Origin: Fusobacterium sp. JB019
GTDB lineage: Bacteria > Fusobacteriota > Fusobacteriia > Fusobacteriales > Fusobacteriaceae
NCBI GenBank assembly: GCA_030673965.1
Contig: JAUTCN010000005.1
Coordinates: 1-53,343 of the forward strand
Direction: 5' to 3'
Length of the DNA: 53,343 nucleotides
The stretch's first letter is position 1; every line of letters begins with the position of its first letter. The notes below the pieces were generated by a model. The model was not told where the DNA came from. It saw only the letters and a list, made by a program, of their open reading frames with translations, and did no database searches. Below, one piece after another: positions 8,747-27,975 of this stretch. The position numbers and the translations under genes are program-made.

Positions 8747-8778
8747 TTGAATACCTCCATTCATTTGAATATAAATAT

Positions 8779-10389
8779 TTAATTTTGATTTTCTTGATCT
8801 ATTTTCATTTGGATATAATCATCATAATCCATTAATTTATCAATGATAGTTCCGTCTGGTAAAATTTCAATAATTCTATTAGCTACAGTTTGTATAAATT
8901 CATGGTCATGAGCTGAGAAAAGTACAGTTCCGTTAAATTTAGTAAGAGCTTTATTAAGAGATGTAATAGATTCAAGATCTAAATGGTCTGTAGGATTATC
9001 AAATAATAAAGCATTAGCTCCAGACATCATCATTTTTGATAACATACATCTAACTTTTTCTCCTCCCGATAAAACAGCTGCTTTCTTTTGAGTTTCCTCT
9101 CCAGTAAATAACATTCTTCCTAAAAATCCTCTAACAAATGAATCATGTTGATCAGGAGAATAAGGTCTTAACCAATCAACTAAGTTTTCATTAGCTCCTT
9201 CAAAAAATTCAGAATTATCTTTTGGCATATAAGCTGGAGTGACAGTAACTCCCCAAGTAATAGTACCTGAATCAGGTTCAATATCTCCTGCTAAAACAGA
9301 AAGAAGAGTTGTTTTTAGAATATCATTATCACAAATAAAAATAACTTTATCTTTAGTGTTTATTGTAAATGATAAGTTTTCAAATATTTTAACCCCATTT
9401 ATAGATTTAGAAATATTTTCAACTTTTAGCATATTATTTCCAGCTTCTCTGTTAGATTTAAATTCAATAAATGGATATTTTCTATTTGAAACTTGCATAT
9501 CTTCAAGTTGTAGTTTTTCAAGTTGTTTTTTTCTTGAAGTTGCTTGTTTTGATTTGGCAGCATTGGCACTGAATCTAGCTATAAATTCTTGTAATTCTTG
9601 TCTTTTTTGTTCTAATTTTTTGTTTTTATTAGAAATAAGACCAAGCATTAGTTGACTTGATTCATACCAGAAATCATAGTTTCCTACGAACATTTTAATT
9701 TTACCATAATCAATATCAGCTATATGAGTACAAACTTTATTTAAAAAATGTCTGTCATGTGATACGACAATTACAGTAGTATCATTTAAATTCATAAGAA
9801 AATTTTCTAACCATGCAACAGCTTTGATATCAAGTCCATTTGTAGGCTCATCAAGTAATAGAACATCAGGATTTCCAAATAGAGCTTGAGCAAGTAATAT
9901 TTTTACTTTCATTCCTTCGTCTAATTCTTTCATTAGTAAATCATGGTATTTAGCTTTGATACCAAGACCAGTAAGTAGCATGGCAGCTTCAGGTTCAGCA
10001 TCCCATCCATTTAATTCTGCAAATTCTCCTTCAAGATCGGCAGCTCTCATACCGTCTTCATCTGTGAATTCTTCCTTTGCATAAATAGCATTTTTTTCTT
10101 CTATTATATTCCAAAGTTTTTTATGTCCCATAAGAACGACATCTAAAACTTTAGCTTCTTCAAAAGCGAAGTGATTTTGAGAAAGAACAGCCATTCTTTT
10201 ATTTTTATCTAAAATAACGTCTCCCTCAGTTGGTGATATTTCACCAGATAATATTTTAACAAAAGTAGATTTACCAGCACCATTAGCACCAATAAGTCCG
10301 TAACAATTTCCAGGTGTAAATTTGATGTTTACATCTTCAAAAAGTTTTTTATCTGGAAATCTCATAGTAAGATTGCTTGTTGAAATCAT
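8779..10389 (-). CDS. ABC-F family ATPase (YbiT/YkpA-like) with degenerate second ATPase domain
   Basis: A 536-residue soluble tandem ATPase. Domain 1 has Walker A GANGAGKST and Walker B LLLLDEPTNGLD, but a weak signature (LDEGMKVK instead of LSGGE). A charged linker (about 245-300, LEQKRQELQEFIARFSANAA) matches ABC-F proteins that bind ribosomes. Domain 2 keeps the signature LSGGEKVR but its Walker A reads FICDNDILKTT and its Walker B FDNPTDHLD, lacking the catalytic glutamate. From memory, Bacillus YkpA shows a similar but milder change. Likely role: a translation or ribosome-state factor. No membrane segments are seen. Confidence 0.88.
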   Translation of the reverse strand: MISTSNLTMRFPDKKLFEDVNIKFTPGNCYGLIGANGAGKSTFVKILSGEISPTEGDVILDKNKRMAVLSQNHFAFEEAKVLDVVLMGHKKLWNIIEEKNAIYAKEEFTDEDGMRAADLEGEFAELNGWDAEPEAAMLLTGLGIKAKYHDLLMKELDEGMKVKILLAQALFGNPDVLLLDEPTNGLDIKAVAWLENFLMNLNDTTVIVVSHDRHFLNKVCTHIADIDYGKIKMFVGNYDFWYESSQLMLGLISNKNKKLEQKRQELQEFIARFSANAAKSKQATSRKKQLEKLQLEDMQVSNRKYPFIEFKSNREAGNNMLKVENISKSINGVKIFENLSFTINTKDKVIFICDNDILKTTLLSVLAGDIEPDSGTITWGVTVTPAYMPKDNSEFFEGANENLVDWLRPYSPDQHDSFVRGFLGRMLFTGEETQKKAAVLSGGEKVRCMLSKMMMSGANALLFDNPTDHLDLESITSLNKALTKFNGTVLFSAHDHEFIQTVANRIIEILPDGTIIDKLMDYDDYIQMKIDQENQN

Positions 10390-10429
10390 TAATTAATATT
10401 CCTCCTAATAGTTTTATTATATTCAGGGT

Positions 10430-10438
10430 ATTATATCA
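10430..10438 (-). promoter_or_regulatory. probable extended -10 promoter of the ABC-F gene
   Basis: On the minus strand TGATATAAT (10438 down to 10430) is a good extended -10 element, about 40 bases before the ABC-F start. The matching -35 is poor. Confidence 0.5.
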
Positions 10439-10496
10439 CAAATTTTAGTAAATTAAAACTTTGAAAGCTAATAATAAATAATATATTAAAAAAATC

Positions 10497-10525
10497 TTGA
10501 TGTTGTATAAATATAATGTTATTAT
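10497..10525 (+). promoter_or_regulatory. promoter upstream of the flavin oxidoreductase gene
   Basis: TTGATG (10497-10502), 17 bases, TATTAT (10520-10525). The first gene starts 43 bases downstream behind GATAAGGA. The operon earP-efp probably shares it. Confidence 0.55.
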
Positions 10526-10568
10526 ATACCTTGTTAAAAAATAAATTAGATTTGAGATAAGGAAAAAA

Positions 10569-11525
10569 ATGAAAAATATATTGACGCCATTAAAAATAAA
10601 AAATATAGAAGTGAAAAATAGAATTATTCTTCCCCCTTTAGTTAGATTTTCAATGATTGGAACTGATGGAAAAGTTACAGAAAAACTTTTAAATTGGTAT
10701 GAGGATATTGCTAGAGATAAAGTAGGCATGATTATTGTTGAAGCTACTTGTGTGGCAGAAGATGGTAAATTAAGGGATAATCAACTTGGAATATGGAATG
10801 ATAGTTTTATTGAAGGGTTGAAAAAAGTATCGGCTATTGGTAAAAAATATAAAGTTCCAATGTTAATACAAATTCACCATGCTGGCTTTAAGAAAGATTT
10901 TTCTTTAGTTCCAGAAATAATTTTAGATGAAATTTTAGAAAAATTTATAGTTGCTTTTAGAAGAGCAAAGGAAGCAGGGTTTGATGGAATAGAAATTCAT
11001 GGAGCTCATACTTATTTGTTAAGTCAATTAAATTCAAGAATATATAATACAAGAATTGATAAATATGGTGGAAGTTTTGAAAAAAGAATGTATTTTAATA
11101 AGAACTTAATAGAAAGAACTAGAGAATTATTTGATGAAGATTTTATTTTAGGATATAGAATGGGAGGGAATGAACCTTCTCTTGAAGATGGCATACAAAT
11201 AGCAAAATATCTTGAAAATTTAGGAATAGATTTAATTCATGTTTCTACAGGGATTCCTGAAGAAAGATTTAGGCAAAAAGCAAAGATAGATAATTTCCCA
11301 GAAGAGTTTCCATTAGATTGGGTTATTTATATGGGTGTTCAGATAAGAAAAAATATAAATATTCCTGTTATAGGGGTAAGAAATATAAAAAAAGAAGAAC
11401 AAGTTAGTTATTTAATAGAAAATGATTTGCTTGATTTGGTTGCTGTTGGAAGGGCTATGATTTTTACCAAAAGATGGATGCATAAAGCAATGATTTCTTA
11501 TAAAAAAAGAAATGAATTAAAATAA
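10569..11525 (+). CDS. old yellow enzyme family NADH:flavin oxidoreductase
   Basis: A 318-residue TIM-barrel FMN protein. Landmarks are the N-terminal PLKIKNIEVKNRIILPPLVR, WYEDIARDKVGMIIVEAT, the substrate-binding histidine pair in GIEIHGAHTYLLSQL (about residues 143 and 146), NTRIDKYGGSFEKR and the phosphate-binding VAVGRAMI. These fit the short YqjM-like class, which reduces activated double bonds with NAD(P)H. It is slightly shorter than YqjM. The physiological substrate is unknown. It lies 13 bases before earP, so it may be cotranscribed with the EF-P modification genes, although no functional link is evident. Confidence 0.88.
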   Translation: MKNILTPLKIKNIEVKNRIILPPLVRFSMIGTDGKVTEKLLNWYEDIARDKVGMIIVEATCVAEDGKLRDNQLGIWNDSFIEGLKKVSAIGKKYKVPMLIQIHHAGFKKDFSLVPEIILDEILEKFIVAFRRAKEAGFDGIEIHGAHTYLLSQLNSRIYNTRIDKYGGSFEKRMYFNKNLIERTRELFDEDFILGYRMGGNEPSLEDGIQIAKYLENLGIDLIHVSTGIPEERFRQKAKIDNFPEEFPLDWVIYMGVQIRKNINIPVIGVRNIKKEEQVSYLIENDLLDLVAVGRAMIFTKRWMHKAMISYKKRNELK

Positions 11526-11538
11526 AAGAGGTGTAAGT

Positions 11539-12702
11539 ATGATACCTAGAAGTATTGATATATTTTGTGAAATTATTGACAATTATGGAGATATAGGAGT
11601 TGTATATAGATTATCTAAAGAATTAAAAAGAGTTTATCCTCAAGTTAGGATAAGAATAATTTTAAACAAATTAGAGGAGTTGTTAAAAGTTAATCCAAAA
11701 ACAAAAGACAAGGATTATCAAGAGGTAGGTAACCTTATATATATTAAAGAAAATTTTTTAAAAAAAAATTTAAAAAAGTATGGAGTTTCTGATATAATAA
11801 TAGAGGCTTTTGGTTGTAATATCTTAAAAGATTATATAGATATAGCTAAAGAAAAGTCAAAACTTTGGATAAATCTTGAATATCTTTCAGGCGAAAAATG
11901 GATTGAAGGTTTTCATTTGCAAGAATCATTAATAGATTCTAAGAATTTAAAAAAGATTTTTTATATGCCAGGCTTTACTAATAAAAGTGGTGGAATTATA
12001 TTAGATGAAACTTTTATAAAAAGAAAAGAATATGGTGAAATACATAAAGATAAAATATTAGAAAAATATTTGCCAAAAATATTTTTTGATAAAAAGCTAG
12101 TGGGGACTATTTTTTCTTATGAAAAAAATTTTAAAAATTTATTAATAGAGTTAAATAGGATGGAAAAAGATACAGTTTTATTACTTATGGGTGAAAAAAC
12201 ACAAAAAAGTATTCTTAAAGTTTTAGATGAAAATCTTTTAGAAAATTTTGGAAATTTTATGAAATATGGTAAAATAATTCTAAAGAATATGGAATTTTTA
12301 TCTCAAGAGGAATATGAAGAGATTATTTCTGCCTCAGATTTTAATTTTACAAGAGGAGAAGATTCTATAGTTAGAGCTTTGATATTAGGGAAACCTTTTT
12401 TATGGCACATATATTTACAAGAAGATCAAGTCCACATGGATAAATTAAATGCTTTTATAGCAAGATTAGAAGAAAGTATTTTACTATCTCATGAAGAAAA
12501 AAATATTTTTGAAAAATATAAAAAACTCTTAAGAGACTATAATGATAGAAATGAGAATTCTTTAAAGTTAGGAAATGAAAACTATTCAGCTTTATTCCAT
12601 AATTTTTCTACTATAGAAAAAATTTGTAAAAAGTATAGTACTTTTTTAACTAAAGAATGTAATTTAGTAGAAAAATTAAAAACATATATAAAAGGATTTT
12701 AA
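11539..12702 (+). CDS. earP: EF-P arginine 32 rhamnosyltransferase
   Basis: A 387-residue GT-B fold glycosyltransferase of the former DUF2331 family. The N terminus SIDIFCEIIDNYGDIGVVYRLS carries the two conserved aspartates (Asp14, Asp18), and TRGEDSIVRAL near residue 275 carries the C-terminal nucleotide-sugar site glutamate. EarP transfers rhamnose from dTDP-L-rhamnose to Arg32 of EF-P. The next gene, 13 bases downstream, is efp, and it has arginine at position 32, which strongly supports the assignment. The family is known mainly from beta/gamma-proteobacteria, with reports from Fusobacteria. GAGGTG precedes the ATG. Confidence 0.93.
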   Translation: MIPRSIDIFCEIIDNYGDIGVVYRLSKELKRVYPQVRIRIILNKLEELLKVNPKTKDKDYQEVGNLIYIKENFLKKNLKKYGVSDIIIEAFGCNILKDYIDIAKEKSKLWINLEYLSGEKWIEGFHLQESLIDSKNLKKIFYMPGFTNKSGGIILDETFIKRKEYGEIHKDKILEKYLPKIFFDKKLVGTIFSYEKNFKNLLIELNRMEKDTVLLLMGEKTQKSILKVLDENLLENFGNFMKYGKIILKNMEFLSQEEYEEIISASDFNFTRGEDSIVRALILGKPFLWHIYLQEDQVHMDKLNAFIARLEESILLSHEEKNIFEKYKKLLRDYNDRNENSLKLGNENYSALFHNFSTIEKICKKYSTFLTKECNLVEKLKTYIKGF

Positions 12703-12715
12703 AGGGGGACAATTA

Positions 12716-13279
12716 ATGAAAGTAGCACAAGAATTAAGACAAGGGTCTACAATAAGAATAGGTAAAGATCCATTCATCGTATTAAAAGCTGAGTATAATA
12801 AATCAGGAAGAAATGCAGCGGTTATGAAATTAAAAATGAAAAACTTATTAGCTGGAAATATAGTGGATACAGCTATAAAAGCTGATGAAAAAATGGATGA
12901 TATAAGACTAGAAAGAGTTAATGCTGTATATTCTTATTCTGATGGAACTAACTATATTTTCTCTAATCCAGAAACTTGGGATCAAATTGAATTATCTGCA
13001 GAAGATTTAGGAGATGCAATTAATTATTTAGAAGAAGAAATGGAAGTTCAAATTCAATATTATGAAGAAACTCCAGTAAGTGTAGAGTTACCTACATTTG
13101 TTGAAAGACAAATAGAATATACTGAACCAGGATTAAGAGGAGATACTACAGGAAAAGCTCTTAAACCAGCAAAATTAGCAACAGGATTTGAAATTCAAGT
13201 ACCTTTATTTGTTGAACAAGGGGAATGGATAAAAATAGACACAAGAAATCATTCTTATGTTGAAAGAATAAAAAAATAA
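12716..13279 (+). CDS. efp: translation elongation factor P
   Basis: A 187-residue three-domain protein, the normal length. The loop that reaches the peptidyl-transferase centre reads KSGRNAAV, placing Arg at residue 32, the EarP-modified type (other subclasses have lysine there). Later segments GLRGDTTGKALKPAKLATG and VPLFVEQGEWIKIDTR are classic domain II/III signatures. EF-P relieves ribosome stalling at consecutive prolines. GGGGGAC precedes the start, and a terminator follows directly, so efp is the last gene of the unit. Confidence 0.97.
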   Translation: MKVAQELRQGSTIRIGKDPFIVLKAEYNKSGRNAAVMKLKMKNLLAGNIVDTAIKADEKMDDIRLERVNAVYSYSDGTNYIFSNPETWDQIELSAEDLGDAINYLEEEMEVQIQYYEETPVSVELPTFVERQIEYTEPGLRGDTTGKALKPAKLATGFEIQVPLFVEQGEWIKIDTRNHSYVERIKK

Positions 13280-13281
13280 TA

Positions 13282-13312
13282 AAAAAAAAGTGGCTTAAGC
13301 CACTTTTTTTTT
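13282..13312. terminator. terminator after efp
   Basis: The palindrome AAAGTGGCTTAAGCCACTTT is flanked by at least six A and T on the two sides (13282-13312). It separates efp from the pilus-type operon downstream. Confidence 0.88.
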
Positions 13313-13331
13313 ATTATTTTTTACTTGTTTA

Positions 13332-13360
13332 TTGTTTTTTTAATCGAATTAAGGTACAAT
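13332..13360 (+). promoter_or_regulatory. promoter of the chaperone-usher type operon
   Basis: TTGTTT (13332-13337), 17 bases, TACAAT (13355-13360), 34 bases before the first pilin-like gene. It is the only clear promoter found before the seven co-directional genes that end at the 22676 terminator. Confidence 0.65.
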
Positions 13361-13394
13361 AAAACTAAGGGAAAAAGATAGTTAGGAGGAAAAA

Positions 13395-13859
13395 ATGAAA
13401 CAAAAATTTGTTTTTTTTATGACCGTATATATATTATTATTTTCTTTTATACAAGGAAAATCTGTAAAAGAAGGACAAGTTGAAATAGAGGTAGAACTAG
13501 AAATTATAAAAGATTTAAGTGTCGAAGTTACCCCTATGCACTTTGGGGATTGTATGCCTGGAGCAACTAATATAGAAGCAACAAGTAATATCGAAATTGA
13601 AGGGGAAGCAGGAAGATGGGTGTTAGTTAAATTTTTTGATAGAAATAATATTTCTAATGAAGGATATATAGAATTAATAAATCAAGCTGATAATTCTAAA
13701 AAACAAAGAGTTAATTTAAGATTGCAAAGTTCAAATGATGGATATTTATATATAAATAATGGAGAAGTAAGAGATAATATAATAGGAAGTATTGATAGAG
13801 TAGTTGATAATCCAGGATATTATGAAGGTTTTGCTGTGGTAAAAGTAAGGTATAATTAA
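13395..13859 (+). CDS. pilin-like secreted protein (putative major subunit)
   Basis: A 154-residue protein with a signal peptide (about residues 1-21, KQKFVFFMTVYILLFSFIQG). The mature part is predicted beta-rich: EIIKDLSVEVTPMHFGDCMPGA at the start and GYYEGFAVVKVRYN at the end. The N-terminal FGxxxPG turn and the final alternating hydrophobic strand resemble subunits of donor-strand pili (DUF4402/alpha-type pilins). No gene family is recognised with certainty. It is the first gene of an operon that also encodes an usher-like and a PapD-like protein, so the main shaft subunit is the best guess. GGAGG precedes the ATG. Confidence 0.6.
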   Translation: MKQKFVFFMTVYILLFSFIQGKSVKEGQVEIEVELEIIKDLSVEVTPMHFGDCMPGATNIEATSNIEIEGEAGRWVLVKFFDRNNISNEGYIELINQADNSKKQRVNLRLQSSNDGYLYINNGEVRDNIIGSIDRVVDNPGYYEGFAVVKVRYN

Positions 13860-13883
13860 TAATTACATAAAAATGGAGGATAT

Positions 13884-16004
13884 ATGAAGAAAATAATATT
13901 AGGTTTAATGATGTGTTTATTTAGTTTTTCCTTTGGTGAGGATGCAATAAAAGTAAATATACCTTTAAAAACTACTGATATGTATCTTTATAAGAATTTA
14001 GAAATAGGTAAATACGAGGGAGTATATACTTATTTTTTAGATGGAATTTCAGATAAAGTTATTTATAAAGTAGACGATAGTTTTTATAATAATCACAGTA
14101 GAGTTAGTAAAGAAAGTTCAGTTATTGTTAGAACTTTTGAAGATAAAAATGATAATGAACATTATTATATTGAAACTCCAATTAGGTATACAGTTGCAGT
14201 TTTAACGAGAAAGGATTCCTTTGTAAAAACAATGGATGATTTAAATAATTTAAATGTTGGATATATAAAAGGGAGTCAAGGTTTAAAAGAAATTAAAACT
14301 AGATTTAAAAATATAAATTTCATAGAAAATTCAGTTAAAAATAGAGAAAAGGGATTAGAAGCTCTTGATAAAGGAGAGATAGAAGCTTTAATAATTAAAG
14401 ATTGGCTTAATTATTATGATGATAATAAAATTACAAGAATTATTGATAAGATTAACTATAAAGAATGTATAGCTATTGATAAAGATAAAGAAAATGTTTA
14501 TAACAAAATAAAATTAAAAATTGATAATTTAAAAAATGAAGAAATAGAAAAAATAATTAGTACTGAAAGAACAAAATATTATAAGTATATTTTAAAAGAT
14601 ACACCAAATTATTCAATAGTAAAAAATAAATTTAATGAAATAAAAGTAAAATTACCAGAAGATAAATATATGATACCTTTCTATTATTCTTATAAAAAGA
14701 GTTATAAAGGAATAACTATAAAAGTTATTAAAGAGATAGAAAGAGTACTTGAGATACCCCTTGTTTTTAGTGAGAATAATGGAGATATAAAGCCTATTCT
14801 TGTTAGAAATAGCAAAAATTTAAAAAGTTATATATTTACTAAACCTTATTATGAAAGTAAAATTACTATAGCCAATAGAAGTAGAGATGGTTTTATAGAA
14901 AATATAGCTGATTTAGATAACAAAAAAATAATAGTTAGAAAAGATACGAATATTAGAGAATATATAGAAAGTAGAGTTAAAAATCCTGAAATAATAGAAG
15001 TTGCTACATATCAAGAAGGATTAGAAAGACTTCTTGATAAAAAAGGAGAGTGTTTAGTAGGTTACTTTGGTTCTATAAATGGGATTATTTCTAATAATTT
15101 TATAGAAGATAAAGTTAAAATAGCTGGAATTTTAAATGACACTTTAAATGTAAGTGTAGCTATCGACAAAGATCAGCCAGAATTATCTCAATTAGTAAGA
15201 ATGATTGTAGAAAGTTTTGATGTAGATAAAACTATTTATGATGATTCTTTAACAAAAAATATTTTAGTTGCTAGAAATTATAAATTAATGGCTAAAATAG
15301 GTATACCTGTATTAATATTTATAATAATCTTAATAATAGTTTTAATTATTTCAGAAAGAAATAGAAAAAGAGCCGAAGAATTAAGTTATATGCTAGTAAA
15401 GACTTTAGAGATGGCAAATAAACTAAATGATGAAGATACGGGGGAACATACTAAAAGACTAGGCCTTTATTCAGAAGTTTTAGCAAGGGATATAGGAAAA
15501 TTTACAAAAGAAGAAATAGACGAGATAAGAAAATATGCAACGGTGCATGATATTGGGAAAGTTACTATTCCTGCTGATGTCTTAAAAAAACCAGGGAAAT
15601 TAACATCAGAAGAATTTAATATAGTAAAAGGGCATGTTAATTCAGGTTTTGAAATAGTTAAAAATTTAAAACTAGGAAAAATAGCAGAGAATATAGTTAG
15701 ATTTCATCATGAAAAATGGAATGGAAAAGGTTATCCTCTTAAATTAAAAGGAAATGATATTCCTTTAGAAGCAGCTTTGGTAGGTGTTGCTGATATGTAT
15801 GATGCTTTGAGACAGGAAAAAGCATACAAGAAAAGTTTGACTCATAGTGAAGCAGTGGAAATAATAAAATCAGAATCAGGTAAAAGTTTTTCTTCTGAAA
15901 TAGTGGAATGCTTTGTTAAAAACCATAAGTTATTTGAAAAAATTTATGAAGAAAATAAAGAAGCAGTTGATTTGGCTGAGGAATTTTATTCTGCTATAAA
16001 ATAA
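13884..16004 (+). CDS. membrane HD-GYP phosphodiesterase with two periplasmic solute-binding domains
   Basis: A 706-residue receptor. A signal peptide (1-18) is followed by two regions resembling SBP_bac_3 domains (about 20-255 and 260-460; for example YTVAVLTRKDSFVKTMDDLNNLNVGY and FTKPYYESKITIANRSRDG), one membrane span (about 473-492) and a cytoplasmic HD-GYP domain. The latter is intact: DTGEHTKRL, HDIGK (555-559), IPADVLKKPGKLT and HHEKWNGKGYP (608-618). Such domains hydrolyse cyclic di-GMP. Its placement as second gene in a pilus-type operon suggests ligand-controlled turnover of a nucleotide signal that governs the pilus. That link is inferred, and no GGDEF protein is in the window. 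Confidence 0.88.
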   Translation: MKKIILGLMMCLFSFSFGEDAIKVNIPLKTTDMYLYKNLEIGKYEGVYTYFLDGISDKVIYKVDDSFYNNHSRVSKESSVIVRTFEDKNDNEHYYIETPIRYTVAVLTRKDSFVKTMDDLNNLNVGYIKGSQGLKEIKTRFKNINFIENSVKNREKGLEALDKGEIEALIIKDWLNYYDDNKITRIIDKINYKECIAIDKDKENVYNKIKLKIDNLKNEEIEKIISTERTKYYKYILKDTPNYSIVKNKFNEIKVKLPEDKYMIPFYYSYKKSYKGITIKVIKEIERVLEIPLVFSENNGDIKPILVRNSKNLKSYIFTKPYYESKITIANRSRDGFIENIADLDNKKIIVRKDTNIREYIESRVKNPEIIEVATYQEGLERLLDKKGECLVGYFGSINGIISNNFIEDKVKIAGILNDTLNVSVAIDKDQPELSQLVRMIVESFDVDKTIYDDSLTKNILVARNYKLMAKIGIPVLIFIIILIIVLIISERNRKRAEELSYMLVKTLEMANKLNDEDTGEHTKRLGLYSEVLARDIGKFTKEEIDEIRKYATVHDIGKVTIPADVLKKPGKLTSEEFNIVKGHVNSGFEIVKNLKLGKIAENIVRFHHEKWNGKGYPLKLKGNDIPLEAALVGVADMYDALRQEKAYKKSLTHSEAVEIIKSESGKSFSSEIVECFVKNHKLFEKIYEENKEAVDLAEEFYSAIK

Positions 16005-16031
16005 TAATTTATTAAAAGAAGAGGTGAAATT

Positions 16032-17501
16032 TTGAAGAAATATTTATTATTCATAGTATTTCTTATATCAAACATAATATCTTTAGGAGAAGACTCTAAT
16101 ATAGAAAGCATTTTTATGGAGGAAGTTAGAAACGAAAATGAAGTAAAGAATGAACTTAATATTATTCAAAGTATTAAGATTCAAACTTTAGATCCTATAA
16201 AAATGAGAGATCAATATTCAGAAAGAGCAGTAAAGTTAATTTATGATACGTTATTTAATATAGAAGATGGTAAAGTAGTTCCTTATTTAGTTAAAGATTA
16301 TAAATGGAAGGATGAAAGGACTCTATTTATAGAATTAAAGGAGGGGGTATTATTTCACAATGGAGAGGAGCTATCTTCAACTGACGTTAAATTTACTTTT
16401 GAAAGATTTTCTGAAAAAGGAGCTTTAAAAGATACTTTTGAGGAAATAAGAAATATAAAAATCATAGACAGTAAAAAGCTAATAATGAAATTAGAAGAAG
16501 AAGACACTATGTTTTTAGAAAAGTTAACATATGTATCTGGTTCTATAGTAAAGAAAACCAAAAAAGGAATTACAGGAAGTGGGAGATTCTATCCTATTGT
16601 TTTTAATAATGGACAAGTTGTTTTAAAAAGATATTTTAAATATTTTAAAGGGAAATCTATAGTAAAAAAAATAAGATTTACTCATGAAATTAATGATAAG
16701 AAAAAAATGACTTCTTTATTTGATGAAGGAAGTGATGTAGCTTTTGATGTAAGTGAAAATGCATATAACGAGGCAAGGGAAGAAGGTATAATTCCAGATG
16801 ATGTTTTAGTTAGAAAGAATAATTTGATGGAAAGTGCTGTTATTAGGTTTGGAAATAAAAATAAAGATATCTATACAAGAAAAAATAGAAAATTGATTGA
16901 AAAAATTATAAATAGAGAAGAAATTTCAAAATTAGTAACAGGGACAAAAGACAATATGGCAGAAACATATTTTCCAAAAAGTTTATTTAAAGCATCTTTA
17001 TCTAAAACAGAAAATAATTTTAATAAAAAATTAATAAAATCTGAAATAAAGAAAAGTAATATAAAAAATGAAATAAACTTAATGATATTAAATAATATGT
17101 TAGATATGGCAAAAATTATAAAAGAACAATTTAAGTTATATGGAATTAAAGTAAATATATTGCCTCATAATATAGATTCTTATTCTATGAAAATTAAAAA
17201 TGGAGATTATGATGTAGCCCTTTATAATATGGTTTATAAGGATGATTATATTTTATTAAATATCAGAAATATTTTGTTAAATGATATAAAAGATATAGAT
17301 TTATATAATGCTATTGATCCATTTTTAAAAATTGCTATGGAAGAAAAGGATAAATCAAAAAGAGATAAGATTTTTGATAAAATAGTTCAACTTATATATA
17401 AGGAATTATCATATATTCCAATAATTCATGAAAAATTATTAGTGGTAGGTTATAATAGACTGGATAAAATATACGATATTGATAAAAAGGTGGATAGATA
17501 A
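16032..17501 (+). CDS. orphan solute-binding protein, family 5 (oligopeptide/nickel type)
   Basis: A 489-residue secreted protein starting at TTG (GAGGTG lies 5 bases upstream). A signal peptide (1-19) has no lipobox cysteine. The family signature is clear: QSIKIQTLDPIKMRDQYSERAVKLIYDTLFN, then LVKDYKWKDERTLFIELKEGVLFHNGEELSSTDVKFTFER. No permease or ATPase gene is nearby, and the gene lies between the HD-GYP receptor and a second pilin-like gene (2-base gap). It may act as a ligand carrier for the receptor rather than as a transporter part; this is inference. Sequence after about residue 330 is more divergent than usual. Confidence 0.82.
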   Translation: MKKYLLFIVFLISNIISLGEDSNIESIFMEEVRNENEVKNELNIIQSIKIQTLDPIKMRDQYSERAVKLIYDTLFNIEDGKVVPYLVKDYKWKDERTLFIELKEGVLFHNGEELSSTDVKFTFERFSEKGALKDTFEEIRNIKIIDSKKLIMKLEEEDTMFLEKLTYVSGSIVKKTKKGITGSGRFYPIVFNNGQVVLKRYFKYFKGKSIVKKIRFTHEINDKKKMTSLFDEGSDVAFDVSENAYNEAREEGIIPDDVLVRKNNLMESAVIRFGNKNKDIYTRKNRKLIEKIINREEISKLVTGTKDNMAETYFPKSLFKASLSKTENNFNKKLIKSEIKKSNIKNEINLMILNNMLDMAKIIKEQFKLYGIKVNILPHNIDSYSMKIKNGDYDVALYNMVYKDDYILLNIRNILLNDIKDIDLYNAIDPFLKIAMEEKDKSKRDKIFDKIVQLIYKELSYIPIIHEKLLVVGYNRLDKIYDIDKKVDR

Positions 17502-17503
17502 TT

Positions 17504-18358
17504 ATGAAAAAAACTGTAGTTTTAATATTCTCTTTATTAATATATACATTAACTTATTCTCAGAAATTTTGGGGGAATGATTACGATAGGATACTTTCAG
17601 CAACTACAGAAATTGGCGTAATGGAAGATGTCATAACAGGAGCTTCAAGAAGAAAATTAAAGGAAAATGAAGCAATAGAAATAGAACTAAAGCAAAAATG
17701 GAAAAATAAAATAAAAAATATAAGAATAGAATCATTACCTGATAGAGATCATGTAGATTTTTTAAATATACCAGTTGGTAAAATTTATGATTTTAGGTAT
17801 TATGTTAATGGAAGAGAAGTAAATGTAGGTGATGTTATAGAATTTCCAGATAATTCAAATAAACTAAAAATTAAAATTTTAGGAACTTATTCAGGTTATG
17901 AGTGGGCATATCCTCCAGGAAATGGAGGTAATAGAACTTATACAGATTGGATAGGAAGAATGAGATTAAAATATGATGTCCCTTTTTATAATCAAAAAAA
18001 TAAAACAATTGATATTGCATATTTATATTACCAAACTAATGTTATTCCAAAAGTGAATGTTAATGTTAGTGGCAAAATGGATTTTGGCCAAGTTATAGCA
18101 GGGCAGTCTTCTAGAGCAGATGTAGATGTAGATGTTTATTTTTATAATGATAGAAGCACTTACGAAATGCCAGAATTTACATATATTGAAAATTCAAATG
18201 GAAATAGATTACAGGTAAATTTAACAGATGAATTATATAATTATAGTACGTGGGATTCTCATAGTAAAATTAGAGTAATAGGGGAAGTCCAAACTCATAA
18301 AAATACTCCTGTAGGTAAATACAAGGGAAGTTTTTATGTTAAGTTTAGATTTAAATAA
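17504..18358 (+). CDS. two-domain pilin-like protein (putative tip adhesin or minor subunit)
   Basis: A 284-residue protein with a signal peptide (1-19, ending TYSQ). The first part (about 20-185) is unfamiliar and beta-rich, containing a GGNRTYTDWIGRMRLKYDVP stretch. The second part (about 186-284) begins VNVNVSGKMDFGQVIAGQSSRADVDV and ends GKYKGSFYVKFRF, which resembles the fold and FGxxxxG turn of the 13395 protein. A distal domain plus a pilin domain is the usual plan of a pilus tip adhesin, and the gene directly precedes the usher. The assignment rests on pattern and context, not on a recognised family. Confidence 0.55.
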   Translation: MKKTVVLIFSLLIYTLTYSQKFWGNDYDRILSATTEIGVMEDVITGASRRKLKENEAIEIELKQKWKNKIKNIRIESLPDRDHVDFLNIPVGKIYDFRYYVNGREVNVGDVIEFPDNSNKLKIKILGTYSGYEWAYPPGNGGNRTYTDWIGRMRLKYDVPFYNQKNKTIDIAYLYYQTNVIPKVNVNVSGKMDFGQVIAGQSSRADVDVDVYFYNDRSTYEMPEFTYIENSNGNRLQVNLTDELYNYSTWDSHSKIRVIGEVQTHKNTPVGKYKGSFYVKFRFK

Positions 18359-18386
18359 AATAGTCTTATTTTAAATGGGAGAGAAT

Positions 18387-21008
18387 ATGGGAAGATTGAA
18401 TAAAAATTTAAATAGAATAAAAATGATAGTTATTTTTACTATAATTTTTAATGTTTCCTATTCTTTTACAGGAGACTATAAAAATTATGAAGAAGCTTAT
18501 GTGGAAATTAGAGCAAGAAGAAAAATGGATGATTTTTTTATGGTGAAGTATGATTACGAAAATGATAGAGTTTACGTAGGAATAAAATCTTTGTTTTATT
18601 TTTTAGAGCTTTATAATGTGGAAGTGAATACTAAAACAGGTTTAGTTTCAGGTGAAATAGCAGGTAAAAATTTTAAAACAACTTTTTCTAAAAAAGAGTA
18701 TTTTGTAGATAATGAAGATATATTTGTAGGTATAGAAAAACTAAAAAAACTAAATATAAAAGATCCAACATATAATTCTTCAGAACTTAGTATAACATTA
18801 AATCCTTTGTTTGAATTACCAATAGAAGAAAGAGAAAAAAGCAAAATAAATAGAATGAGATTTGATCAATCACAAGAAGAGACAGAAGTAAATATCGATT
18901 ATTTATCTAAGGGAAAACTTTTTACACCAGGTCTTTTAAAATTAAATTATTATAAAAATGATATTGAAAAAAATGAAGACAATTTTGATTTTGAATATGC
19001 TAATCAATTGTTGTATGGAGATTTTTATGTAAAGCAAGATATAACACCAAAAAAAGAATTAGATATATATAGATTGACTTATCATAATGTTTTTAAAAAG
19101 AAAAGTTTAATATTAGGAAATTTTAATATGGAACTTCCAGGGTTTGTAGATGTAAGCGGTGATTTAAGAGGTGTATATTTTGGTGATGATAATACTTATA
19201 TGACTAAATCAGATGAAGATGGTTATATAAAGATTAAAGGTAAGGCTAAAAATGCTGATATTATAGAGCTTTATCAAGGACAGGCTTTAGTTGATTATCT
19301 AAGACCTAATAAAGAAGAATTTGAATTTAAGATAAAAGATAGGGCATCTAGAGGGGAATATAATTTAAAGATATACTATAGAGATGGTAAAATAGAAAAT
19401 AGAAAAGTTTATATAGCAGGAGATAGAAGGCTATTAAATGAGGGGAAAATTGATTACACAGTTCAAATAGGAAGAACAGAAAAACAAAAAGATGATCAAA
19501 AGTATGCAGAAGTTAGATATGGTTTAAATGATTCACTTACTGCTGGAATAGGGGCGTATGATTTAAAATCTTCAGGCAGTAAAAAATATAGGATATTAAA
19601 GAATAATTTAATATTTAAAACAGGTCAAGGAAGAGATAAAACAATAACCAATTTTACAAATTATTATGAAAATAAAACTAAAAGTGATAGTTATGAATTG
19701 ACTATTAATCATAATATTGATGACGTTAATTTAAGATTTGAAAACGAGAAATATGGAAAATCAATAAAAGATCAAGAAAATATATCGGATTATTACCGTA
19801 TATCAGCAAATAAAGATTTTAATAATAATTCTGTAGAAATTGGTTACACATTAAAAAATAATGAAGAATCTAGAAAAGAACATGAATATTTTTTAGATGT
19901 TGAGAATAGAAGATTTTATCAAACGACATTTGGAATAAGATTAAAAAAAGTAGAAAATGATGAAGGTTCCTTTATGGTTTATAGTCCAGAAGTTAGTTAT
20001 CACGGAGTAAAAAATGTAAGTTTTATATTGAAAGCAGAATTTAAGGCTAAAGATTTTACAAAAGATTTAGAGTCAGATTATAGTTTTAGAGCTTATACAA
20101 GAAAATTACAGATACCTAAAACTGAATTATTTTATGATGTTAGTTTATCAGCAAATTATTCTGATGAAGAAAAATTTTATAGTTCTCTTGATTTCACATT
20201 GTATTTTGATGATCATGTTAGTGTGGAAACACCTATTTATATAGATGATAAAGGAAGTAGAAAAGTAGGATTGAAGCTTGATAAAATTATAGATTTGTCA
20301 GATATAAGAAGAGACGTTAAAAATGTAGATATTGATAAATCTTGGGTATTTGGAAAAGTTTATTTAGATTCAAATAGTAATGAAAAATATGATGAAGGAG
20401 AACGTTTGTTAGAGAAAGTTGGTGTATCTTTAGATGGGGATACAATTTTTACAAATGAAAAAGGAAAATATTTTATAGATGGAGTATTACCTAATAAAAT
20501 TCATGAACTTTCTTTAAATAGAAGAACAATTGATCCAATGTTAAAAAGTGTAAGAGATAAAGTAACAATTGTAACAAAAGCTTCTGAAGGTGTTAAGATA
20601 GATATTCCAATAGCTCCGGTTTCTATGGTCAGTGGAAATCTTTGGATGGGAGAAAAAATAAATGATAGAAAATTTATGCGTATTATAAGTATGACCAATA
20701 TTTCTTTATTAAAAGATGGGAAAACATATAAAGAAATAGATCCAGAATATGATGGCTTATTTTTCTTTGAAGATGTAGTTCCAGGAGAATATATAATTAA
20801 ATTTAATTATTTAGGTGATGAAAGAATTAAATTTACTCAAGAAGAAATACCAGTGATAGTTAAATTAGAAAGTGATGAGGAGGGAGGATATTTTGAAGGC
20901 TTAGATACAATAATAGAAGTAGATGATAGTGACGAAGAAAATCAATCAGAAGTAACAGAAGATAAAGAAGAAACAGAAGATATAACAAATATATTAAATA
21001 ACTTTTAA
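18387..21008 (+). CDS. outer-membrane usher-like protein with C-terminal Ca-binding-like repeat domain
   Basis: An 873-residue protein beginning at ATG 18387, because GGGAGAG lies just before it; the ATG 12 bases earlier has no such site. After a signal peptide comes an N-terminal domain. A plug-like domain at about residues 275-350 (IKIKGKAKNADIIELYQGQALVDYL ... GEYNLKIYYRDGKIENRKVYIAG) matches usher sequences. A long alternating beta region (about 360-640) fits a barrel. At about 654 a domain starts VFGKVYLDSNSNEKYDEGERLLEKVGVSLDGDT, an SdrD/CNA-B-like fold with an EF-hand-like loop. The tail is very acidic. It would secrete and assemble pilin subunits. Confidence 0.72.
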   Translation: MGRLNKNLNRIKMIVIFTIIFNVSYSFTGDYKNYEEAYVEIRARRKMDDFFMVKYDYENDRVYVGIKSLFYFLELYNVEVNTKTGLVSGEIAGKNFKTTFSKKEYFVDNEDIFVGIEKLKKLNIKDPTYNSSELSITLNPLFELPIEEREKSKINRMRFDQSQEETEVNIDYLSKGKLFTPGLLKLNYYKNDIEKNEDNFDFEYANQLLYGDFYVKQDITPKKELDIYRLTYHNVFKKKSLILGNFNMELPGFVDVSGDLRGVYFGDDNTYMTKSDEDGYIKIKGKAKNADIIELYQGQALVDYLRPNKEEFEFKIKDRASRGEYNLKIYYRDGKIENRKVYIAGDRRLLNEGKIDYTVQIGRTEKQKDDQKYAEVRYGLNDSLTAGIGAYDLKSSGSKKYRILKNNLIFKTGQGRDKTITNFTNYYENKTKSDSYELTINHNIDDVNLRFENEKYGKSIKDQENISDYYRISANKDFNNNSVEIGYTLKNNEESRKEHEYFLDVENRRFYQTTFGIRLKKVENDEGSFMVYSPEVSYHGVKNVSFILKAEFKAKDFTKDLESDYSFRAYTRKLQIPKTELFYDVSLSANYSDEEKFYSSLDFTLYFDDHVSVETPIYIDDKGSRKVGLKLDKIIDLSDIRRDVKNVDIDKSWVFGKVYLDSNSNEKYDEGERLLEKVGVSLDGDTIFTNEKGKYFIDGVLPNKIHELSLNRRTIDPMLKSVRDKVTIVTKASEGVKIDIPIAPVSMVSGNLWMGEKINDRKFMRIISMTNISLLKDGKTYKEIDPEYDGLFFFEDVVPGEYIIKFNYLGDERIKFTQEEIPVIVKLESDEEGGYFEGLDTIIEVDDSDEENQSEVTEDKEETEDITNILNNF

Positions 21009-21022
21009 AGGAGAGAATTAAA

Positions 21023-21916
21023 TTGAAAAAATTATTTATTTTATTTAGTCTAATGTTAGTTTTTTCTTTTGAAATTTTCTCAAGAGAAAGAATAGAAAAC
21101 ATAGATAAAAAATTATTGAAAAGCGGGATAGTTTATATAAAAAATGAAAAATCTCCTTATACAGGAACATTAAAGGGGAAAAATATAGTAGAAATATATA
21201 AAAGTGGAATAAAAGATGGCTATTTTAAAGGTATAGTTAAAATAGATAAAGAAGCTTTTTTATATGAAGGAAGATATGTTCAGGGAATAAAACATGGAGT
21301 TTGGTATTTGAAATATAAAACAGGGATAACTAAAGCTATTATGAAATATAATTATGATAGACCTCATGGACATTGGTCATATTTTTATCCGAATAAAGCA
21401 ATAGCAGGATATGAAAATTTAAAAGATGGGTTGCTTGCAGGAAAAGTAGTTCAATATAATAAAGATGGAAGTTTGAAGGCTACAGTGAATTATAAAAATG
21501 GACTTCTAGAAAAGGAAGGAACTTTTTTCTATAATAGTGGAAATTTAAAAGCTGAAACTAATTTTAGATTAGGAAAGGTAAATGGACCTATTAGGATATA
21601 TTCAGATGGTGGAACATTATTATTAGATGGAAATTATATAAATAACAGGAGAGAAGGTAAATGGATGATGTTTTATAGAAATGGAGATTTAAAAACAACT
21701 ATAGAATATAAAAAAGGTTTGAAAGATGGAGAATTAGTTATTTATGATAAATCTGGAATGATATTGGATGTAGCTAAATTTGAAAATGGATTAGAGTTAG
21801 GAACAGGTGAAACTAAAGTTCCAAGGCTTAGAGATAATATAGTAGGAATGTTTAAGAAATTTAATAGGGATTTAAAGTATGAACAATATAATAAAATATT
21901 AACAGAAATGGAGTGA
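21023..21916 (+). CDS. secreted MORN-repeat protein
   Basis: A 297-residue protein starting at TTG 21023 behind AAGGAGAG, with a signal peptide (1-20, ending FSRE). From about residue 60 to 245 it is built of MORN-2 repeats, for example GIKHGVWYLKYKTG, RPHGHWSYFYPNK, REGKWMMFYRNGDLK and LKDGELVIYDKSG, each about 22 residues. Fusobacteria have many such proteins, often labelled YwqK-like. Function is unknown. The gene is placed between usher and chaperone, with gaps of 14 and 5 bases, so it may be a periplasmic scaffold or assembly accessory for the surface structure. Confidence 0.8.
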   Translation: MKKLFILFSLMLVFSFEIFSRERIENIDKKLLKSGIVYIKNEKSPYTGTLKGKNIVEIYKSGIKDGYFKGIVKIDKEAFLYEGRYVQGIKHGVWYLKYKTGITKAIMKYNYDRPHGHWSYFYPNKAIAGYENLKDGLLAGKVVQYNKDGSLKATVNYKNGLLEKEGTFFYNSGNLKAETNFRLGKVNGPIRIYSDGGTLLLDGNYINNRREGKWMMFYRNGDLKTTIEYKKGLKDGELVIYDKSGMILDVAKFENGLELGTGETKVPRLRDNIVGMFKKFNRDLKYEQYNKILTEME

Positions 21917-21921
21917 TGTGT

Positions 21922-22677
21922 ATGAAAAAAATGATAATGTTATTTGCAGGAATGTTGATGTCTATTCAACTTTTAGCGTTTAACTTTAGTGTAGCCCCAA
22001 CAAGATTTGAGGTTAGTCTAGACAAAATAGCAACTAATGAAGTAATACTTATGAATAATACTGCAGAACCTATGAGAGTTTCAACTTTTTTAGAGGCTCC
22101 AGAGGGATATGGAAAATATAATTTAAATAAGAATATTAAACTATATCCTAAAATGGTTTCAATCAAACCAGGTGGAAGACAAATTGTTAGATTTAGAGTT
22201 AAGCCTAGTCCTAATATGGAACCAGGTGAATATAAGAGTTATATTGTTTTTAAAGAGAAAGAAGGAGAAATTAAGAAGGTTGAAACTAATATAGAAGAAA
22301 GTACAGGCATCGGTGTTCAGCTTAAAATGTTAGCTGAAATTGGTATTAGTATTTATGGTACTTATGGCGAACAAATAGTAAAAGGGAGTTTAAGTAATTT
22401 TACTGTAAAATTAGCTGATGAAGATAATGTCATTATGGGATGTGATTTAGTTTCAAAAGGAAATGCTAGTTTAAAATTATCTAGGAAATTAGAAATATTA
22501 AATAATGCAGGTAAAGTTGAAAAAGTTTATGATACTGAGTTTGGAAGAAGTGCAAGAAATGGAAAAAACAGAATAGATAATTCAATGACTGTAGATAATA
22601 TTAAGGGAAAAACTATAAGAGTAACAATAACTGATCAACTAAATAGAATTTTATATCAAGGAAAACATACTTTATAA
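21922..22677 (+). CDS. PapD-like periplasmic pilus chaperone
   Basis: A 251-residue protein. I chose ATG 21922 because GGAG lies 8 bases before it; GTG 21913 and ATG 21916 are alternatives in frame. After a signal peptide (1-19), mature sequence starts FNFSVAPTRFEVSLDK, typical of the first chaperone strand. The G1/F region reads NKNIKLYPKMVSIKPGGRQIVRFRVKPSPNMEPGEYKSYIVFKEK, close to the conserved P-x-L-xx-GxxQxVR pattern of chaperones. The C-terminal half is a second Ig-like domain. It would hold pilin subunits for delivery to the usher. It is the last gene before a terminator. Confidence 0.78.
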   Translation: MKKMIMLFAGMLMSIQLLAFNFSVAPTRFEVSLDKIATNEVILMNNTAEPMRVSTFLEAPEGYGKYNLNKNIKLYPKMVSIKPGGRQIVRFRVKPSPNMEPGEYKSYIVFKEKEGEIKKVETNIEESTGIGVQLKMLAEIGISIYGTYGEQIVKGSLSNFTVKLADEDNVIMGCDLVSKGNASLKLSRKLEILNNAGKVEKVYDTEFGRSARNGKNRIDNSMTVDNIKGKTIRVTITDQLNRILYQGKHTL

Positions 22678-22707
22678 AAAAAGAAGAGACTAGTCTCTTC
22701 TTTTTTT
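22676..22707. terminator. bidirectional terminator after the pilus-type operon
   Basis: AGAAGAGACT and AGTCTCTTCT (about 22682-22699) form a perfect palindrome flanked by A-runs and T-runs. It closes the operon that starts at 13332 and also ends the converging nitroreductase gene. Confidence 0.9.
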
Positions 22708-23521
22708 ATAACCATGTAATATTAGATTTTTTCCTAGGTACAGTTCTTAAATATTTTACATCTGGATATCCAATAACCATACAATTTATTATTTTTTCAT
22801 TTTTATTTAAATTTAGAAATTTTCTGATTTGATCATTATTTTTACAAGCTAATATAAAAAATCCACTATATAGAGATCCTAAACCTAAAGAATTACACAT
22901 AAGTTCCATATTGGTTGATGCGAGACCAGCATTTAATTCGTTAGGAGAGGTTATGATTATAATATTTTTAGAGAAAAAGAAAAGATTATCTTGCTTATTG
23001 GGATTTCTCTGGAATATTCTATACATAAGTTTCCAAGTTTTAGCATACTTTATATCTAATTCATTTTTTGGATTTTTTAAAATTTCTTTAGCTAAATCAT
23101 TTAATGATTCTAATACTAATTTTTTTAGTTCATTTATTTTTTCTTGAATAATAATATAAGAAACATCTTGAGAATTACTTGCTGTGGGAGTATATCTTCC
23201 TGCTTCAATTATTTTTATTAATTTTTCATTTTCTACTTTTTTATCTTTAAATTTTCTAATTGTTCTTCTAAATTTTATAAAATTTAATAAATTTTCAGGT
23301 TTAATATTAAAAGAAACTTTATCATAATCAATAACTTCATTCATATCATATTCATCTGTGTAAATAGCATTAGTTGGACAAATAGCTATACAATGTCCAC
23401 ACTTTATACAATCATTATTTTTAATAAAAGCTTTCTCTTCAACAAAAATGATATCTTTTACAAAGCAGTCATCTATACAAAGGGCACATCCAATACATTT
23501 TTTATTATCTATTTTAAACAT
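22706..23521 (-). CDS. ferredoxin-fused nitroreductase family protein
   Basis: A 271-residue protein. Residues 1-60 form a two-cluster ferredoxin (CIGCALCIDDC and CIKCGHCIAICP, giving two 4Fe-4S clusters). Residues about 78-271 are an FMN nitroreductase-like domain starting FRRTIRKFKDKKVENEKLIKIIEAGRYTPTASNSQDVSYIII. Such fusions are common in anaerobes and couple reduced ferredoxin to flavin chemistry; the substrate is unknown. AGGAGG lies upstream of the start. It is a single-gene unit, divergent from pabA. Confidence 0.9.
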   Translation of the reverse strand: MFKIDNKKCIGCALCIDDCFVKDIIFVEEKAFIKNNDCIKCGHCIAICPTNAIYTDEYDMNEVIDYDKVSFNIKPENLLNFIKFRRTIRKFKDKKVENEKLIKIIEAGRYTPTASNSQDVSYIIIQEKINELKKLVLESLNDLAKEILKNPKNELDIKYAKTWKLMYRIFQRNPNKQDNLFFFSKNIIIITSPNELNAGLASTNMELMCNSLGLGSLYSGFFILACKNNDQIRKFLNLNKNEKIINCMVIGYPDVKYLRTVPRKKSNITWL

Positions 23522-26386: not shown

Positions 26387-27166
26387 TTAAAAAGTTGGAA
26401 TTATAGATCCTTGATATTTTTTTAGAATGAAATCTTTTGATTTTTGACTTCTAAGAGCGTTAACTAATTCTAAAACAGTTTCATTTTGTTCATCTCCTTG
26501 TCTAACAGCAACAACATTAACATAAGGAGAATTTTTATCTTCTCTAAGCAGTGCATCTTTAACTGGAGATAAGCCTCCTTGAATAGCATAATTGCTATTT
26601 ATAACAGCAAAGTCAACGTCATCTAAAACACGAGGAAGTTGAGGTGCTTCTAAAGATTTAAATTTTAATTTTTTAGGGTTTTTAATAATATCAAATTCTG
26701 TGGCAAAAAGATTAGTAGGATCAGCTAAAGTAATAATTCCCTTGTTATGTAAAAGGATTAATGCTCTTCCTCCATTAGATGGATCATTAGGTATAGCAAT
26801 AGTGTCTTTTTTATTAAGTTCGTCTAAAGATTTATGTTTCTTGGAATAAAGAGCTATTGGACCGATTAAAACATCTCCAACTTGAGAAAGTTTTAAATTT
26901 CTTTCTCTTTTAAATTTTTCTAAATAAGGTATATGTTGGAAAAAATTAGCATCTAGATCTTTATTAGCAAGAGCAAGATTAGGAGTAACATATTCATTAA
27001 ACTCAACTATTTTAAGATCAATTCCTTTTTCTTTAAGTAAAGGTTTAATATTTTCTAATACCTCAGCATGTGGTACAGGACTAGCTCCTACTTTTAAGAC
27101 AATATTTGCAAATAAAAGCTGAGAACTAAGAATAGTTAATATTAGTAGTGATAATATTTTTTTCAT
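26387..27166 (-). CDS. metQ: methionine-binding protein, second copy (NlpA/MetQ family)
   Basis: A 259-residue periplasmic protein, distal copy of a tandem pair. A signal peptide (1-20, ending LLFAN) has no lipobox cysteine, so it appears to be a soluble rather than a lipid-anchored MetQ. Motifs are VLKVGASPVPHAEVLE, VEFNEYVTPNLALANKDLDANFFQHIPYLE and AIPNDPSNGGRALILLH. It would deliver methionine to MetNI. It lies 17 bases after the first metQ, shares a 136-base identical stretch with it, and differs most near the C terminus, which may tune its ligand. Confidence 0.9.
   Translation of the reverse strand: MKKILSLLILTILSSQLLFANIVLKVGASPVPHAEVLENIKPLLKEKGIDLKIVEFNEYVTPNLALANKDLDANFFQHIPYLEKFKRERNLKLSQVGDVLIGPIALYSKKHKSLDELNKKDTIAIPNDPSNGGRALILLHNKGIITLADPTNLFATEFDIIKNPKKLKFKSLEAPQLPRVLDDVDFAVINSNYAIQGGLSPVKDALLREDKNSPYVNVVAVRQGDEQNETVLELVNALRSQKSKDFILKKYQGSIIPTF
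26707..26842 (-). repeat. 136-base segment identical to 27504-27639 (metQ duplicates)
   Basis: Bases 26707-26842 and 27504-27639 are identical, whereas the flanking parts of the two metQ genes differ at many synonymous and non-synonymous sites. The block encodes the SLDELNKKDTIAIPNDPSNG and following residues. Such a sharp block of identity is typical of gene conversion between tandem paralogues. Confidence 0.85.
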
Positions 27167-27183
27167 AAAAAGTTCCTCCTATC

Positions 27184-27975
27184 TTAGAATGCAGTAACAA
27201 CAGCACCATTATATTTTTTCTCAATAAATTTTTTAACTTTTTCACTTTGTAAAGCAGCCATTAATTTTTTTATTTCAGGTTTGTTTAAATCATCATTTCT
27301 AACAGCAACAATATTAGCATATGGAGAATCTTTTCCTTCAAGTAATAAAGCATCTTTCTCAGGGGATAAACCAGTTTCAATAACAAAATTAGTATTTATA
27401 ACAGCAAAGTCAACATCATCTAAAACACGAGGAAGTTGGGCAGCTTCTAAAGATTTAAATCTTAATTTTTTAGGGTTTTTAGCAATATTAAATTCAGTAG
27501 CGTAAAGATTAGTAGGATCAGCTAAAGTAATAATTCCCTTGTTATGTAAAAGGATTAATGCTCTTCCTCCATTAGATGGATCATTAGGTATAGCAATAGT
27601 GTCTTTTTTATTAAGTTCGTCTAAAGATTTATGTTTCTTAGAATAAAGTCCAAGAGGTTCTACGTGAACATTTCCAGCTGATGTAAGTTTTAAGTTTCTT
27701 TCCTTTTTAAATTTTTCTAAATAAGGAACATGTTGAAAAAAGTTAGCATCTAAATCTTTATCTGCAAGAGCTAAATTAGGAGTAACATAATCAGTGAATT
27801 CAACTATTTTAAGATCGATTCCTTCTTTAGCTAAATCAGGTTTAATTGCTTGTAATATTTCAGCATGTGGTACAGGGGTAGCTCCAACTTTTAATATGGT
27901 ATTTCCAAAAGCTAATTGGCTTAAAAGTAATAAGTTGATACCTGTTAATAATAATGTTTTAAATGTTTTTTTCAT
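27184..27975 (-). CDS. metQ: methionine-binding protein, first copy (NlpA/MetQ family)
   Basis: A 263-residue protein with a signal peptide ending LAFGN and no lipobox cysteine. It has the same NlpA motifs as its neighbour (VLKVGATPVPHAEILQ, FTDYVTPNLALADKDLDANFFQHVPYLEKF, SNGGRALILLHNKGIITLADP). It is the first receptor after metI, preceded by AGGAGAGG. The second copy could bind D-methionine, methionine sulfoxide or peptides; nothing in the sequence decides this. Confidence 0.92.
   Translation of the reverse strand: MKKTFKTLLLTGINLLLLSQLAFGNTILKVGATPVPHAEILQAIKPDLAKEGIDLKIVEFTDYVTPNLALADKDLDANFFQHVPYLEKFKKERNLKLTSAGNVHVEPLGLYSKKHKSLDELNKKDTIAIPNDPSNGGRALILLHNKGIITLADPTNLYATEFNIAKNPKKLRFKSLEAAQLPRVLDDVDFAVINTNFVIETGLSPEKDALLLEGKDSPYANIVAVRNDDLNKPEIKKLMAALQSEKVKKFIEKKYNGAVVTAF

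Follow-up and report, generated by a model that had tools for sequence, protein, structure and literature searches.

A chaperone-usher pilus operon of Fusobacteriaceae with its own predicted HD-GYP receptor, probably under cyclic di-GMP control

Chaperone-usher pili are generally regarded as belonging chiefly to proteobacteria. The type 3 fimbriae of Klebsiella pneumoniae are encoded by mrkABCDF together with mrkHI and mrkJ, and c-di-GMP turns these fimbriae on (PMC3161979, PMC5344390). In Pseudomonas aeruginosa the cupD genes lie with rcsCB and pvrSR, and the adjacent phosphodiesterase PvrR opposes their expression (PMC2696094). Fimbrial clusters with their own c-di-GMP phosphodiesterase are therefore already known (PMC3161979, PMC5344390, PMC2696094). 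The locus described here probably belongs to a chaperone-usher pilus of Fusobacteriaceae that is likewise under c-di-GMP control, its pilins being turned on by c-di-GMP and down by the system's own receptor-phosphodiesterase.

The window is the whole stretch of DNA that was analysed, the first 53,343 nucleotides of contig JAUTCN010000005.1 of Fusobacterium sp. JB019. As an earlier note on this DNA had claimed, it contains seven co-directional genes with short gaps. The plus-strand ORFs span 13395-22677 and were called as ORF 1, 13395-13859; ORF 2, 13884-16004; ORF 3, 16032-17501; ORF 4, 17504-18358; ORF 5, 18375-21008; ORF 6, 21023-21916; and ORF 7, 21913-22677. The gaps between them are, in order, 24, 27, 2, 16, 14 and -4 nt. 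Ribosome-binding sites read by eye make a start at 18387 more likely than 18375 for ORF 5, the usher gene, and at 21922 more likely than 21913 for ORF 7, the chaperone gene. The terminators claimed on both sides are also present as palindromic sites, a bidirectional intrinsic terminator upstream (13275-13318) and a second terminator downstream (22672-22711); terminator-like sites number 5 against 2.2 expected. Weak Rfam matches near the operon (mir-1255 and CsrC) overlap the terminator hairpins only and were rejected. The single upstream promoter is plausible and its probable position is 13332-13360 on the plus strand (TTGTTT-17-TACAAT): the -10 box TACAAT at 13355-13360 and the surrounding block are conserved in the nearest relative (L032), although matches in a consensus promoter scan are no more frequent than chance. 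Reckoned from this -10 box, the leader is about 30 nt long, and Rfam gives no riboswitch in it, even at E≤1.

The contig has other features of note. At 204,898 bp it appears to be a perfect palindrome: window positions 1-19899 are the reverse complement of G000:C5:185000-204898, and the middle 11.1 kb is identical to its own reverse complement. An artefact of assembly is the probable cause; it would double gene counts and perhaps explains the 4% contamination. A SAM riboswitch (29744-29831, minus strand) lies upstream of a minus-strand cluster (26387-29649) whose genes, read by eye, resemble those of a methionine ABC transporter, and a lysine riboswitch (45539-45711, minus strand) lies upstream of minus-strand genes, the first of which is at 44223-45428.

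Gene 5 (18387-21008, plus strand) encodes a predicted outer-membrane usher of 873-877 aa. Its AlphaFold2 model was built from an 18-sequence alignment (pLDDT 77.4). In a Foldseek comparison with the PDB the top 18 matches of this model are all FimD or PapC, and the best is FimD (E=4.3e-26, about 900 columns). The product had been described as usher-like, and the FimD/PapC fold of the predicted structure confirms gene 5, as modelled, to be an usher by fold, a barrel with plug and terminal domains. The Pfam usher profile PF00577 has no match at E≤1 in the window protein or in any of 17 relatives. As the usher fold is present in the model, this miss is a limit of the profile's reach. No sequence-profile link from the usher to solved ushers was found, and only the fold comparison revealed the relation. 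HMMER searches of the operon, a check that the earlier note had proposed, thus gave nothing for PF00577, and their matches to PapD_N (E=0.0076) and DUF4402 (E=0.059) are both sub-threshold; the Pfam curated cut-offs are passed by HD-GYP, SBP_bac_5 and MORN_2.

The product of gene 4 (17504-18358, plus strand) is predicted to be a two-domain, tip-adhesin-like protein with a C-terminal pilin domain. Its AlphaFold2 model (pLDDT 80.6) resembles the two-domain tip adhesin CsuE, which is the best Foldseek match (6fjy_B, 3.4e-6); the top four include 6k73_D, a CFA/I chaperone-tip adhesin complex, at 1.3e-4. Gene 1 (13395-13859, plus strand) would encode a small secreted pilin-like subunit of 154 aa. 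It has no Pfam match of its own, and phmmer links it to the pilins and tip-adhesin C-domains of relatives (1e-6 to 3e-9). A tip-adhesin homologue from this phmmer set matches DUF4402 at 8e-9, a family that stays below threshold in the window operon itself. Gene 7 (21922-22677, plus strand) encodes a putative periplasmic chaperone of the PapD/CsuC type. Its own PapD_N match is sub-threshold, that of a relative (L049) reaches 2e-4, and the only PDB matches of the chaperone profile (A2) are to CsuC at E 0.035, which is weak but specific; support for a PapD-like two-domain chaperone is moderate. Structures and profiles thus uphold the pilin-like and PapD-like assignments made earlier, with gene 4 now read as tip-adhesin-like, and the models suggested for the genes at 17504 and 18387 have a CsuE-like fold and an usher fold. 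The divergent surface-fibre system that had been proposed also stands, in that an usher fold is found where the Pfam usher profile is silent. Structures and profiles together identify the locus as an operon for chaperone-usher assembly that also encodes a tip adhesin.

Gene 2 (13884-16004, plus strand) encodes a predicted receptor-phosphodiesterase, as judged from HD_5, PmGH and flytrap matches and from its catalytic residues. The protein has a signal peptide, two periplasmic flytrap (SBP_bac_3-like) domains that match BvgS and glutamine-binding proteins, one transmembrane segment (about residues 473-495) and an HD-GYP domain (Pfam HD_5, 1.3e-27). The solved enzyme closest to this domain is PmGH (4mcw, 2e-38), which we take to be a c-di-GMP enzyme. 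The metal-binding and catalytic residues are complete (HD, HHExWxGxGYP and the distal D), and H522, H555-D556, H584, H608-H609-E610, G614, G616, Y617 and D637 are invariant in a 17-sequence alignment (A4). Gene 2 is thus predicted to be a catalytically complete HD-GYP c-di-GMP phosphodiesterase.

Relatives of the usher are present in 40 of 61 Fusobacteriaceae genomes, including those of Cetobacterium and of Fusobacterium species such as F. mortiferum, and none was found in the 37 other Fusobacteriota genomes searched. One further match, in a genome outside Fusobacteriaceae (G039), covers 71 residues of a single domain and is not an usher. The usher of the nearest relative is 74% identical to that of the window, and the gene order receptor, SBP5, tip protein, usher, MORN, chaperone is maintained across several genera. 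A further usher subfamily, remote at about 26% identity, occurs at L064:12910-19500 and L069:13136-19501, where it is followed by genes, open at the locus edge, for proteins of more than 2100 aa; these could be giant usher substrates or unrelated adhesins. Extra usher copies at G018:C1:171236-173799 and G021:C229:13215-15742 look broken, with split frames and stop codons, which suggests decay of paralogues.

Full-length orthologues of the receptor were identified in 20 Fusobacteriaceae genomes. All 17 that can be judged lie in an usher operon; fragmented contigs prevent judgement in the other three (G007, G012 and G048). Synteny in other Fusobacteriota, on which the earlier note had made its reading depend, therefore holds, within Fusobacteriaceae, for the signalling gene, and with 17 of 17 orthologues so placed its position is no accident of the window genome. 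Presence of the receptor is clustered on a quick usher tree, with 6 changes against 13.6 in shuffled data and none of 500 shuffles as low. Parsimony on the same tree suggests that the ancestor of a clade of 29 members already had the receptor and that L047 and one group of five members lost it, the other absences within the clade being contig ends. Operon groups without the HD-GYP gene retain the usher, so the receptor would not be needed for assembly, and tblastn detected no degraded HD-GYP remnants in receptor-less operons. EAL or GGDEF genes flank or join the operons L042, L049, L041, L053, L054 and L062. In the genomes without GGDEF (G018, G022 and G032) the operons are receptor-less and switch-less; the idea that GGDEF loss accompanies loss of receptor and switch was given little weight, as this amounts to about one event on the tree and G020 and G021 carry one GGDEF gene.

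Riboswitches, which like the remote pilin cluster discussed below are absent from the earlier note, supply a second element of control. A c-di-GMP-I riboswitch (Rfam) heads 15 of the 17 receptor-bearing usher operons, the exceptions being those of the window and its nearest relative. These operon-head riboswitches score 55-62 bits with the covariance model, against a gathering score of 35. Several Fusobacterium genomes have more c-di-GMP-I riboswitches before downstream pilin or chaperone units. Of the 126 such riboswitches in genomes with an usher, 46 are no more than 12 kb away from an usher gene, against an expectation of 3.1. The 5' arm of an intrinsic terminator overlaps the 3' end of the aptamer in 19 of 22 riboswitches examined, so that ligand binding should permit read-through; by this architecture most operon-head riboswitches should be ON switches. 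In a sample of 20 riboswitches away from known ushers, five precede pilin genes by profile (L101, L102, L105, L106 and L107), and the other 15 are followed by large surface proteins, receptors and others. Cetobacterium riboswitches in the regions L108:271-3700, L109:356-646 and L112:3115-3405 precede a gene of about 96-98 aa that is MarR-like by eye, and the one at L108 also precedes a very large surface protein.

The receptor might be a co-transcribed neighbour only, serving a global c-di-GMP control unrelated to the pilus. Many GGDEF and HD-GYP genes exist in Fusobacteriaceae, and c-di-GMP-I riboswitches also stand before non-pilin genes (for large surface proteins, receptors and the MarR-like protein), as this reading would predict. 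It is nevertheless improbable given the residence of the receptor in the usher operon in every testable genome, its clustering on the usher tree and the riboswitches at the operon heads.

HD-GYP enzymes can prefer 3',3'-cGAMP, and the enzyme and the switches could work with this or another cyclic dinucleotide. The HD-GYP profile of gene 2 also matches V-cGAP3, and 2 of the 17 riboswitches read have AGCAAA in place of GGCAAA (L043:4409-4485 and L049:14246-14322, minus strand), so that A replaces G where the choice between c-di-GMP and 3',3'-cGAMP is presumably made. A change of ligand is possible at these two operon heads. For the system as a whole such a dinucleotide is highly unlikely, and the least probable of the alternatives: the other 15 riboswitches have G, PmGH is the closest solved relative of the enzyme, and GGDEF genes are plentiful in these genomes.

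In the window genome the only c-di-GMP-I match (74.9 bits) is on another contig, C10, where it precedes four tandem pilin-like genes, three of which exceed the DUF4402 cut-off. In the nearest relative the arrangement recurs, with three pilin-like genes in place of four. Neither leader has a clear terminator, and in both the ribosome-binding site can be paired with the tail of the aptamer, an arrangement suggestive of translational ON switching. The C10 leader (L082:6483-6678, minus strand) has a duplicated 3' aptamer half, with GCCAGTTGC occurring twice about 65 nt apart, perhaps an extended stem or the remains of a tandem arrangement. Besides the palindromic copy, one usher and one chaperone were identified in the genome, so the C10 pilins most likely use those of the window operon. 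A further DUF4402 gene, at C2:235580, has no riboswitch match. The genome has nine GGDEF matches, some perhaps counted twice owing to the palindrome. PilZ was not found in it, and its only match to the second c-di-GMP riboswitch class is a sub-threshold c-di-GMP-II hit (G000:C1:38835-38908; 24.7 against 53.5 bits).

Gene 3 (16032-17501, plus strand) encodes a predicted orphan periplasmic solute-binding protein of family 5 (Nik/Opp-like; SBP_bac_5, 2.5e-27), whose profile matches SaNikA (4ofj) at 2e-30; no ABC transporter lies beside it within the operon. The earlier note had proposed that a periplasmic ligand bound by SBP5 is passed on to the HD-GYP receptor, which would control fibre assembly directly. 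The two genes do adjoin in the window and in most close relatives. SBP5 occurs without HD-GYP in operons L046, L048, L050 and L051, however, and HD-GYP without SBP5 beside the ushers of L053-L056 and L059, so the genes assort independently and this link is not supported. Two binding domains are already part of the receptor itself, and riboswitched pilins make direct action on assembly unnecessary. This proposal is therefore unlikely, if less so than the two alternatives weighed above, and SBP5, which accompanies receptor-less ushers and is absent beside some receptors, is less likely to carry the receptor's ligand than to serve pilus biogenesis or to be a sensor in its own right. Gene 6 (21023-21916, plus strand), for a putative secreted protein with MORN_2 repeats (6.4e-14), is kept between usher and chaperone in relatives.

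The preferred reading is control of pilin synthesis by c-di-GMP. Its computed basis comprises the fold identities, operon conservation, catalytic residues, and the riboswitches with their ON-type architecture. We infer that the phosphodiesterase acts on the pool that the riboswitches read, that the remote pilins use this usher, and in which direction ligand acts. The window operon would make the usher, chaperone, tip adhesin, small subunit and the periplasm-sensing HD-GYP phosphodiesterase, and the cell's diguanylate cyclases would make c-di-GMP. At high c-di-GMP the riboswitch, placed at the operon head in most relatives and before the separate four-pilin cluster in the window genome, would let pilin mRNA be made or translated. 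The receptor would degrade c-di-GMP according to the ligands bound by its two flytraps and thereby lower pilin synthesis, giving dispersal or negative feedback. Where the riboswitch stands before the receptor's own operon, as in most relatives, a negative feedback loop would result; the window operon has no riboswitch, so its loop would be closed in trans through the locus on the other contig. It is somewhat favoured, with less confidence than c-di-GMP control as such, that the circuit runs without a c-di-GMP-binding protein, the flytrap HD-GYP receptor setting c-di-GMP and RNA switches before pilin genes reading it.

A search of the open-access literature found no paper on chaperone-usher systems of Fusobacteriota or on riboswitch control of such systems. 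If the proposed control is correct, the system would be without precedent on two counts, as a chaperone-usher system with demonstrated riboswitch control and as one described from Fusobacteriota. Such pili are widespread in Fusobacteriaceae, where profile-based annotation misses the usher. In them an outside signal could govern fibre production with no regulatory protein in between, RNA taking the role that PilZ-type control has in Klebsiella. The conserved sensor and riboswitches define a path, open to experiment, by which an extracellular signal could reach fibre production; the adhesion of these bacteria is of importance in gut colonisation.

The earlier note had considered structural and signalling genes in one transcript unusual. 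Fimbrial genes accompanied by c-di-GMP genes have precedents in mrkHIJ (PMC3161979) and cupD/pvrR (PMC2696094), and what remains distinctive is the placing of an HD-GYP receptor within the operon for assembly. To judge from the open-access literature, the phylum, this flytrap HD-GYP receptor within the operon and the riboswitches that replace a protein reader are new. The receptor shares its HD-GYP output domain with PmGH and its tandem periplasmic flytraps with sensors of the BvgS/EvgS type, but gene 2 has HD-GYP in place of the histidine kinase and is fixed in a fimbrial operon. The archaic Csu system of Acinetobacter supplies the best solved matches, CsuC for the chaperone profile and CsuE for the tip-adhesin model, a comparison of nearest solved structures only; unlike Csu, the window system is fusobacterial and its usher falls outside the Pfam usher profile. 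The cupD locus of P. aeruginosa is similar in having a chaperone-usher cluster beside the c-di-GMP phosphodiesterase PvrR, and differs in its two-component control and EAL response regulator, with no riboswitch described there (PMC2696094). The mrk locus of Klebsiella likewise combines c-di-GMP-activated chaperone-usher fimbriae with a dedicated phosphodiesterase, MrkJ. MrkJ, however, is of the EAL type and its gene forms a separate transcriptional unit, whereas here a flytrap-HD-GYP receptor is encoded inside the assembly operon, and c-di-GMP, read in Klebsiella by the PilZ-type activator MrkH, would here be read by an RNA switch.
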